From positions 1-45,930 of the IMG/VR virus record IMGVR_UViG_3300035698_005732: a DNA stretch of 45,930 nucleotides. One strand, 5' to 3'. Each line of letters begins with the position of its first letter. The stretch's first letter is position 1. The notes beneath the pieces are model-generated. The model was not told where the DNA came from, did no database searches, and was given only the letters and a program-made list of their open reading frames with translations. The DNA comes from a virus. Below are positions 33,041-36,026 of the stretch, piece by piece. The position numbers and the translations under genes are program-made.

Positions 33041-33344
33041 GCATAAGTGGGTAACAGGACATAGGTTTTTGCCTGAGCTAAACAGATCGTGTGGGCCTAA
33101 GACTATGGCGGTCATCGAAGAGATAGAGGAAGAGATAAATAATCTCCTTATCGAGCTAAACGAGCATAAGCTTGGTAACTTCTCATCTGGCCAGCGAGCT
33201 AGGGTACACTCACACTGTGTACTTACGCCGATTTTGAAAAAGTATCGCAAGGTCTCAGTGCAAGAGCATCTTGAGACGTCAGCAGAGAATAGAAGACGAA
33301 GAAAGCTAGGATTAATACACCCAAGGGAGACAGACGAACTATGA
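33027..33344 (+). CDS. Hypothetical basic protein (105 aa)
   Basis: A protein with a GHRFLPEL start (HKWVTGHRFLPELNRSCGPK), a central acidic helix, and a basic arginine-rich end (AENRRRRKLGLIHPRE). GGAGG is five bases before the ATG. It lies in the replication operon between the helicase and the SpoVG-like gene. Its function is not recognised. Confidence 0.65.
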   Translation: MENTKHKWVTGHRFLPELNRSCGPKTMAVIEEIEEEINNLLIELNEHKLGNFSSGQRARVHSHCVLTPILKKYRKVSVQEHLETSAENRRRRKLGLIHPRETDEL

Positions 33345-33709
33345 ATGTAACGATTAAGAGACTACACGAGTTAGAAGGCGGAGCAACAAAAGCAATCGCA
33401 ACAATATCACTAGACGATATAGGCCTCGTCATATCAGGGTGCCGTATAATCTCTGGTAAGAATGGTCTATTCGTCTCTATGCCACAGGAGAAGGAGCCGT
33501 ACACAGATAGGCAAGGTGTAAAGAGATATGCATCTCATTGCTATTTTGCAGAGAAGGATAAGAGCTTTGCTTTCAATGCTTCAGTTCTCAAGGCTTACGA
33601 ATCATGGGGACACTCTGTACACGACGATATAAAGCGTGACGTACAGCGTGATGATATCGTTGAAGGAACTCAAGTAAACTTCAAACGTGAAGATAATTTA
33701 CCTTTCTAG
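33341..33709 (+). CDS. SpoVG-family protein
   Basis: A 122-residue protein with the SpoVG core: VTIKRLHEL, then ATISLDDIGLVISGCRII, then GKNGLFVSMPQEKEP, a hallmark loop of the family. SpoVG-type proteins bind DNA or RNA sequence-specifically and appear in many phage replication modules, often next to recombination genes. The C-terminus is charged and not conserved. It overlaps the previous gene by ATGA and lies eight bases before the methyltransferase pair. Confidence 0.8.
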   Translation: MNVTIKRLHELEGGATKAIATISLDDIGLVISGCRIISGKNGLFVSMPQEKEPYTDRQGVKRYASHCYFAEKDKSFAFNASVLKAYESWGHSVHDDIKRDVQRDDIVEGTQVNFKREDNLPF

Positions 33710-33717
33710 GAGATAAA

Positions 33718-34749
33718 ATGTGGATTTACTTTCAGGACTTGATCTTTTCAGTGGAATCGGAGGCATCTCGAAAGCACTCGAACCTTGGGTGCGACCAGTT
33801 GCCTATTGTGAGCAAGATAGATTCTGCCAAGGCGTACTACTGTCTAGAATGTCAACAGGTGACATTGATAAAGCTCCAATCTGGGACGACGTTACCACTC
33901 TCAAAGGAGACATGTTGCCAAAAATCGACATCATCTTCGGAGGATTTCCCTGTCAGGATATCAGTGTTGCAGGGCATGGCAAAGGCTTGGAAGGAGAGCG
34001 AAGCGGACTATTTTTCGAGATCATGCGCTTGGCCGAAGAAATCAAGCCCTCTTACATATTCCTTGAAAACGTCCCAGCTATCACTGGGAGAGGCGGGCTT
34101 CGAGTTGTTAGAGAAATTACCTCGTTGGGGTATGATTGTCGATGGGGTATGTTATCCGCTAAAGAAGTGGGAGCATTGCACAAAAGAGAGCGATGGTTTC
34201 TGTTGGGCTACTCCGAACACAATGGAACATCTACCGCCAAAAAGTTACGAGAGAAGCTTGACGAGAGGGAAGACAGACCCGAGACCACGGAAGAGACCAG
34301 GGAATCTGAGGGAACAGGTGGCATACGAACACATGATACCGACTCCGTCAGCCTCGGACTCGGCGAGAGGGCCAGGGAAGCATTACAATCCGAAGAGCAA
34401 GAGGCAGTCAGACAGGACGCTGGTGACGTATGCGATGAAGGCGAAGTTTCCGACACCGACAGCATCGGACTACAGGCGTCGTGGCCCGAACAGCAAGCAA
34501 CAGGGACTATCGGAGGTTTGTCACAATCTTCCGACACCGAAGGCGAGAGACCATCAAGACAAAGGAACTCCTGCGGACATGAAGAGGCACAGTCCTTCCC
34601 TTGCTTCGATCTCGATACGGAACAGTGGCAAGAAGCTGTGTCCGAAATTTGTCGCACTTCTTCTAGGGTATCCGACTACGTGGCTAGAATTAAGTGCCTC
34701 GGCAACAGCGTGGTACCAATCTGTGTCAGGGAAGCGTTCGAAATGTTAA
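33718..34749 (+). CDS. Second full-length ORF overlapping the methyltransferase (PTPxASD family)
   Basis: A 343-residue frame that overlaps the methyltransferase almost end to end. ATG at 33718 and GTG at 33720 share one AGGAG site (spacing 5 and 7). From about residue 75 on, this frame has features of a protein family I recall beside or inside phage dcm genes: SYSLKTSQ-like text (YSLKTSQLSLG), LPRWGMIVDGVCYPL, ATPNTMEHLPP, three PTPxASD/ARD units at 208, 245 and 272, and an end CPKFVALLLGYPTTW. The function is unknown. It may be a methyltransferase partner. The first ~70 residues look less constrained. I cannot run the comparison, so homology is from memory. Confidence 0.6.
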   Translation: MWIYFQDLIFSVESEASRKHSNLGCDQLPIVSKIDSAKAYYCLECQQVTLIKLQSGTTLPLSKETCCQKSTSSSEDFPVRISVLQGMAKAWKESEADYFSRSCAWPKKSSPLTYSLKTSQLSLGEAGFELLEKLPRWGMIVDGVCYPLKKWEHCTKESDGFCWATPNTMEHLPPKSYERSLTRGKTDPRPRKRPGNLREQVAYEHMIPTPSASDSARGPGKHYNPKSKRQSDRTLVTYAMKAKFPTPTASDYRRRGPNSKQQGLSEVCHNLPTPKARDHQDKGTPADMKRHSPSLASISIRNSGKKLCPKFVALLLGYPTTWLELSASATAWYQSVSGKRSKC

Positions 34750-34760
34750 GTGGAGTTTAG
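33720..34760 (+). CDS. dcm-like: C5 cytosine DNA methyltransferase
   Basis: A 346-residue DNA (cytosine-5) methyltransferase, probably protecting phage DNA from restriction. Motif I is GLDLFSGIGG (6-15). The catalytic motif IV is GGFPCQD (74-80, Cys78). Motif VI is ENVPA (116-120). Motif VIII is HKRERWF (154-160). The C-terminal GNSVVP (about 328-333) is motif X. Residues about 170-310, the target recognition region, are low in hydrophobic residues and rich in E, R, S, Q and D (SDTDSIGL, DTDSVSLGLG). This bias fits constraint by the overlapping frame. The start is GTG, two bases inside the ATG of the other frame. Confidence 0.9.
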   Translation: MDLLSGLDLFSGIGGISKALEPWVRPVAYCEQDRFCQGVLLSRMSTGDIDKAPIWDDVTTLKGDMLPKIDIIFGGFPCQDISVAGHGKGLEGERSGLFFEIMRLAEEIKPSYIFLENVPAITGRGGLRVVREITSLGYDCRWGMLSAKEVGALHKRERWFLLGYSEHNGTSTAKKLREKLDEREDRPETTEETRESEGTGGIRTHDTDSVSLGLGERAREALQSEEQEAVRQDAGDVCDEGEVSDTDSIGLQASWPEQQATGTIGGLSQSSDTEGERPSRQRNSCGHEEAQSFPCFDLDTEQWQEAVSEICRTSSRVSDYVARIKCLGNSVVPICVREAFEMLSGV

Positions 34761-35094: not shown

Positions 35095-35385
35095 ATGATT
35101 ACAATACAAGACGTTGAAGAGGCTTTAAAATTTAATCGTTCTAATCAAACTTGGGACAGTCCAAGTCTAACTATAACGATAGCCGAGTATCTCATAGAGC
35201 GTGACAAGCCTGAGGAAGAGCCTGAGGAAGAGCTTTTGCCATGCCCCTTCTGCGAAGGAAAGGCTGTTTATGATTGTTGTGGTACTGAATATCGTTTAGG
35301 GTGCAATAGATGTTATGTTCGTCATGTATTTTGTAAAACAAAAGCCGAGGCGATAGCCGTTTGGAACAGGAGGGCTGACAAGTAA
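35095..35385 (+). CDS. Lar-like zinc ribbon protein, copy 1
   Basis: A 96-residue protein. The N-terminal helix is followed by an acidic linker (PEEEPEEE) and a zinc ribbon LLPCPFCEGKAV then CGTEYRLGCNRC and AEAIAVWNRRAD. The CPFC...GC..C...AI..WN+R arrangement is the Lar family (restriction alleviation in Rac/lambdoid elements). In Lar the protein modulates type I restriction-modification. Here the role is inferred. The last 10 bases fall in the 23-bp repeat at 35376. Confidence 0.75.
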   Translation: MITIQDVEEALKFNRSNQTWDSPSLTITIAEYLIERDKPEEEPEEELLPCPFCEGKAVYDCCGTEYRLGCNRCYVRHVFCKTKAEAIAVWNRRADK

Positions 35386-35834: not shown

Positions 35835-36026
35835 ATGAGTGAAGAAGTAGAATTAGCACAATGCCCCTTCTGTGGCTCTACAAAGATACAGATATACGAA
35901 GAACAAGACATAGGTGAAGATATGATGTACGGTATTATGTGTCTCGGTTGCTGCGCTTCGAACGCAGCGAGATATGACAAGGAATTCGCTATACAATTTT
36001 GGAACACGAGGGCTGTCGATGAGTGA
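35835..36026 (+). CDS. Lar-like zinc ribbon protein, copy 2
   Basis: A 63-residue protein that is almost only the zinc ribbon: LAQCPFCGSTKIQI, then MCLGCCAS, then KEFAIQFWNTRA. It is only distantly similar to the copy at 35095, so it is not a recent duplicate. Lar-type proteins modulate type I restriction, and the role here is inferred. Its end overlaps the start of the next gene (ATGAGTGA). Confidence 0.72.
   Translation: MSEEVELAQCPFCGSTKIQIYEEQDIGEDMMYGIMCLGCCASNAARYDKEFAIQFWNTRAVDE

Follow-up and report, generated by a model that had tools for sequence, protein, structure and literature searches.

In the window, a stretch of viral DNA of 45,930 nucleotides (IMG/VR record IMGVR_UViG_3300035698_005732), one piece of DNA read in two frames very probably encodes both subunits of a C5-cytosine DNA methyltransferase, an explanation to which we assign a probability of about 0.83. 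One chain, here called alpha, is a C5-cytosine methyltransferase of 346 codons that runs from GTG 33720 to 34760 on the + strand. The other, beta, is an open reading frame of 343 codons in the +1 frame relative to alpha and extends from ATG 33718 to 34749 on the same strand. Both frames are open and under selection in relatives, and beta is homologous to the part of single-chain methylases that contains the recognition region and motif IX. From these computations we infer that both chains are translated, that they form an active heterodimer and that this enzyme has a protective role.

Alpha and beta overlap almost completely over ~1 kb, with a single Shine-Dalgarno sequence upstream of both and the start string AGGAGataaaATGTG. 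The two start codons overlap in ATGTG (33718..33722, +), in which the ATG of beta begins at 33718 and the GTG of alpha at 33720. The Shine-Dalgarno-like site within TAGGAGATAAA (33709..33713, +) could serve both starts, and the free energy of its duplex with the anti-Shine-Dalgarno sequence is -7.3 kcal/mol compared with a background mean of -2.4. Due to a TAA two codons 5' of the GTG, this GTG is the only plausible start of alpha ahead of motif I. A preliminary description of this DNA, made from the letters alone, had placed both frames at exactly these starts and had pointed to one ribosome site at ATGTG and an overlap almost end to end, all of which the sequence bears out.

Separate profile searches with the two proteins, as suggested in that description, gave a clear assignment for alpha and a single matching family for beta. 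Alpha matches PF00145 with an E-value of 1.7e-38 over residues 6-240 and also, among others, TIGR00675 (above its cut-off) and phrog_363. The methylase motifs named earlier were all located in alpha on the + strand, namely motif I (LDLFSGIGG, 33738-33764), motif IV with PCQ (GGFPCQDIS, 33939-33965), motif VI with ENV (IFLENVP, 34056-34076), motif VIII (KRERWFLL, 34182-34205) and motif X (LGNSVVP, 34698-34718). With these motifs alpha belongs to the C5-methylases, and it is the putative large subunit carrying motifs I-VIII and X. Neither a clear motif IX nor a recognition domain was found within the alpha chain, and the IX-like segment sits in beta. Between motifs VIII and X alpha is variable, of low complexity and close to the null expectation given beta.

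Beta matched nothing in Pfam or NCBIfam. It matches phrog_1008, a phage family labelled "DNA methyltransferase", with an E-value of 5.4e-19 over residues 65-330, and 40/40 beta proteins tested match this family. The features listed earlier for this frame, which are KTSQ, LPRWGM, TPNTM, three PTPxASD/ARD units and CPKFVALLLGYPTTW, are all present. The LPRWGMIVDGVCYPL segment (34117..34161, +), a conserved hairpin opposite GYDCRWGM of alpha, has a +1-frame similarity z of 9.5 and is locally more confident within an otherwise poor single-chain AlphaFold model of beta (mean pLDDT 54.7, pTM 0.22). The repeats PTPSASD, PTPTASD and PTPKARD (34336..34551, +) form the putative target-recognition region, lie opposite DTDS, SDTDS and SDTEG of alpha and reach a z of 14.4. 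The PTPTASD unit at 34447-34470 and SDTDSIG of alpha at 34446-34469 are read from the same bases, in agreement with the earlier remark that PTPTASD lies opposite SDTDS. A motif IX-like segment follows with KKLCPKFVALLLGYPTTWLEL (34630..34692, +), for which relatives have LNPxWVEWLMGYPxGWT; beta of the window has diverged here and has CPKFVALLLGYPTTW instead. A profile headed by beta of the window aligned with a profile of fused methylases at an hhalign probability of 98.3 and an E-value of 2e-14, onto residues 224-383, where the fused profile has its recognition region and motif IX. The beta profile matched no solved structure among PDB sequences, and phmmer searches of PDB with C-terminal pieces of fused methylases gave a weak, irrelevant pilin match or none. 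In the model of a fused relative, the catalytic domain matches M.HhaI and M.HaeIII, and the recognition region is of low confidence. Judged by profile homology, beta is the predicted counterpart of the methylase recognition region and motif IX and not an unexplained second protein.

The openness of the beta frame was compared with a null in which the synonymous codons of alpha were permuted 20,000 times, which keeps the codon composition. The permuted +1 frames contained 11.0 +/- 2.1 stops, and their longest open run was at most 265 codons, while the observed +1 frame of alpha is open for 342 codons and its sole stop is that of beta itself. Resampling alpha with the codon usage of the window resulted in ~19 stops in this frame. 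The +2 frame of alpha is normal, with 20 stops compared with 20.5 under the null, and the +1 frames of the other long open reading frames tested in the window are open for <=96 codons at a stretch.

Relatives were gathered by alpha alone and are hence unselected for beta. In almost all loci a long +1 frame is present that contains PTPxA units, and ~60/85 have a strict WVEWLMG-type end. Counted strictly inside beta, from alpha codon 9 up to the motif IX segment, stops number 2 in the clade of the window (11 loci with a mean alpha identity of 54%), where 77.7 +/- 5.7 are expected from codon permutation; both lie within the first 13 codons of a single locus, L008. The sister clade (45 loci) has 0 beta stops, with 213 +/- 11.9 expected by the same procedure. 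Stops in the +2 control were at or above expectation in both clades (170 vs 157 and 766 vs 645, respectively). Stops or neutral drift in the frame at 33718 had been named beforehand as the result that would speak against dual coding, and across the 56 loci there are almost no beta stops. The similarity of +1-frame residues also exceeded the permutation null, with z of 34.6 and 101 in the two clades compared with 17.6 and 62 for the +2 control. The similarity in the control is raised by wobble bases that relatives have in common through descent, and therefore the stop counts and the codon-position test weigh more than the similarity z. In the phage collection, 116 and 454 records match the betas of two groups; a scan of genome contigs with beta of ArV1 returned no relatives. 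The two-frame methylase arrangement is conserved across many unrelated phages. At L010:2160-2280 (IMGVR 3300035122_000006), a 6-base insertion in motif IV of alpha introduces an in-frame TGA (GGFP*PCQ) and beta stays open; this variant is either real or was introduced by the assembly. At L052:1920-2897, the WVEWLMGWPIGWT segment lies in the frame of alpha and not in that of beta, either through a natural indel or through a sequencing error.

As no sequence close to the window was found among the relatives, the codon-position test relies on the sister clade. In 29 close pairs of this clade, substitutions at alpha codon positions 1/2/3 number 512/263/1113 over motifs I-VIII and 274/136/145 over the recognition region, where position 1 of alpha is the wobble base of beta. 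The difference between the two regions has a Fisher p of 4e-36, although the pairs share sequences and are non-independent. Among the cleanest pairs, L001/L021 has 4/0/12 over motifs I-VIII compared with 23/5/0 over the recognition region, and L036/L050 has 13/8/30 compared with 36/2/3. In a stretch of 67 residues of L001/L021, beta differs at 3 residues and alpha at 17. The per-frame comparison of substitutions proposed in the preliminary description thus yields a recognition region dominated by beta-synonymous changes. In the reverse test, with beta given, the constraint on alpha is strong outside the recognition region; inside it alpha is near the null, though nearly stop-free. Both frames are selected, each mainly in its own half, alpha over motifs I-VIII and beta over the recognition region, and selection passes from the alpha protein to the beta protein roughly where motif VIII ends. 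Dual coding, as first proposed, is strongly supported by these comparative tests. The SDTDS units, which the preliminary description assigned to the target-recognition region of the methylase itself, lie in a part of alpha that is near the null given beta; these units are better seen as a frame-shadow of the PTPTASD units of beta than as a conserved recognition domain of alpha. In the pair L001/L024, two near-identical Acinetobacter-type methylase genes, one recognition segment of ~95 bases is replaced at about alpha bases 480-580 between near-identical flanks, which suggests a cassette exchange of the recognition region.

The same parts occur in fused and split forms. Among the actinophage-type loci scanned, 41 are fused, with motifs I-VIII, PTPxASD and an EWMMGWP-like segment in one open reading frame, and motif X was recognised in 40/41. 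Single-ORF actinophage C5-methylases such as Mycobacterium phage prophi104-2 gp17 and MilanaBonita gp59 resemble the window in the catalytic domain, the PTPxASD repeats and EWMMGWP, but they have everything in one frame and lack a long overlapping +1 frame. In a compact fused relative, L141, the PF00145 match covers residues 3-329, a span that includes the motif IX-like segment. Arthrobacter and Mycobacterium phages have a separately annotated beta that overlaps alpha or follows its end (Firecracker gp6/gp5, ArV1 067a/067b, TaylorSipht 40/41), and beta is in the +1 frame of alpha in 20/22 split loci. The actinophage split forms L002, L088 and L096 carry motifs IX and X both in beta, while the overlapped clades, including the type of the window, have motif X in the frame of alpha. 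Paenibacillus phage Diva (gp49/gp50) has a nested alpha and beta like the window, and its depositors annotated two genes with the remark "g49 internal gene"; in contrast to the window, beta of Diva begins inside alpha and not at its start. At L030:1764-2813, alpha stops just past motif VIII, motif X is in the next open reading frame and beta is intact, so that this locus looks intermediate between overlapped and split forms.

A passive open frame that arises from the sequence and codon use of alpha and never functions would have in its favour that openness can stem from composition, since the GC content of alpha (51%) is higher than that of the window (41%), and that fused methylases, too, are mildly depleted of +1 stops (128 vs 177 expected). 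However, the null retains codon use and this control is only mildly affected, which rules out an artefact of composition, and codon permutation together with the stop depletion in relatives rules out chance. As in addition beta-synonymous substitutions dominate the recognition region and the actinophage beta continues as its own gene for hundreds of bases past the end of alpha, we give this explanation practically no weight. It is also improbable that beta is a real second protein with another role, for instance as a regulator of the methylase or as an accessory protein to it. The model of beta lacks a confident fold and nothing in the fused enzymes corresponds to the N-terminal part of beta, as such a role would allow, but the conserved C-terminal half of beta shares homology with fused methylases over their recognition region and motif IX, and alpha is without the motif IX that C5-methylases otherwise carry.

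Programmed +1 ribosomal frameshifting, which would fuse motifs I-VIII of alpha to the recognition region and motif IX of beta with no independent start of beta, would fit the +1 position of beta in nearly all split loci and the existence of single-ORF fusions of both parts. Frameshifting does not require, however, that beta be free of stops up to a conserved ATG a few bases from the start of alpha, and the +1 product of the overlapped clades would lack motif X, which lies in the frame of alpha. In the sister clade, the ATG of beta is fixed 4 nt after the start of alpha (NTG-A-ATG-AG), where the codon at the start of alpha is ATG 25 times, GTG 16 times, TTG 7 times and another one 4 times. The shared starts are preceded by Shine-Dalgarno-like sites with a mean dG of -7.0 compared with a background of -2.4. 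Betas that start inside alpha have Shine-Dalgarno-like sites of their own before the candidate starts, e.g. gaacgtgagaggggcctacaGTG, with the bias that these starts were chosen by the best such site. Due to the upstream complementarity, the fixed ATG of beta and the sites before internal starts, independent initiation of beta is preferred and frameshifting appears unlikely.

With independent initiation, we propose that one Shine-Dalgarno sequence recruits ribosomes that would start either at ATG 33718 to make beta or at GTG 33720 to make alpha. Alpha would fold as the catalytic and AdoMet-binding part with motifs I-VIII plus motif X, and beta would contribute the two elements missing from alpha, motif IX and the PTPxASD recognition region. 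On its own, neither chain would methylate; together they would form one enzyme for a specific DNA site, and its methylation probably protects the phage against host restriction. For the family as a whole, we rate it slightly above even odds that in a large group of phages one ribosome-binding site launches both obligate subunits, with selection split by domain, a recognition specificity that local cassette exchange can change and a catalytic half that stays the same.

To our knowledge, there are few long overlaps between genes of one strand for which both products can be assigned. The gene for alpha of M.EcoHK31I (309 aa) also contains beta (176 aa) in a different reading frame, and the putative small subunit of the window is likewise read from a second frame within the gene for the large subunit. 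M.EcoHK31I (YGGCCR) is a C5-methyltransferase made of two polypeptides (Lee, Kam and Shaw 1995, as cited in PMC3404938), the large one with motifs I-VIII and X and the smaller one with motif IX, the same division that the motifs predict for the window. Unlike this enzyme, whose predicted recognition domain is placed in the large subunit by PMC3404938, the window appears to have its recognition region in beta, and its beta has 343 codons, co-initiates with alpha at ATGTG and overlaps it nearly totally. M.AquI (CYCGRG), with catalytic and recognition/C-terminal parts on separate alpha and beta polypeptides (PMC3404938), is a side-by-side analogue; its small subunit holds both motif IX and motif X, like that of L002, L088 and L096, whereas the window has motif X in alpha and a nearly complete overlap. 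The preliminary description named no functional account of such an overlap; for a C5-methylase divided in this way between two polypeptides there is one, M.EcoHK31I (PMC3404938). A two-polypeptide C5-methylase is therefore already known, and the nested internal gene was noticed by annotators of Paenibacillus phages. Co-initiation, near-total overlap and the spread over many phage groups seem undescribed; a literature search found no paper on a family-wide overlap, which is weak evidence given the limited library.

Both overlapping products would be halves of one enzyme, and nature offers a series of fused, split with partial overlap and fully nested forms for comparison. The results suggest that many phage "dcm" annotations cover half an enzyme only and that DTDS-like low-complexity stretches in these methylases are a shadow cast by the partner subunit. 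If alpha is cloned as annotated and the start of beta is left out, the enzyme may be inactive. The locus would be a clean model for one start site that divides ribosomes between two frames.

The genes around the methylase are a primase-helicase-like gene and a SpoVG-like gene upstream and a Lar-like restriction-alleviation gene downstream. The SpoVG-like gene (33341-33709; PF04026, E 4.8e-11) lies directly 5' of the methylase, and the shared Shine-Dalgarno sequence overlaps its end. The Lar-like protein (35095-35385; PF14354, E 1.7e-7) is encoded shortly 3' of the methylase, and the small CxxC protein at 35835-36026, which resembles it, may be another of this kind. It is possible that the methylase and the Lar-like gene or genes form an anti-restriction cluster.
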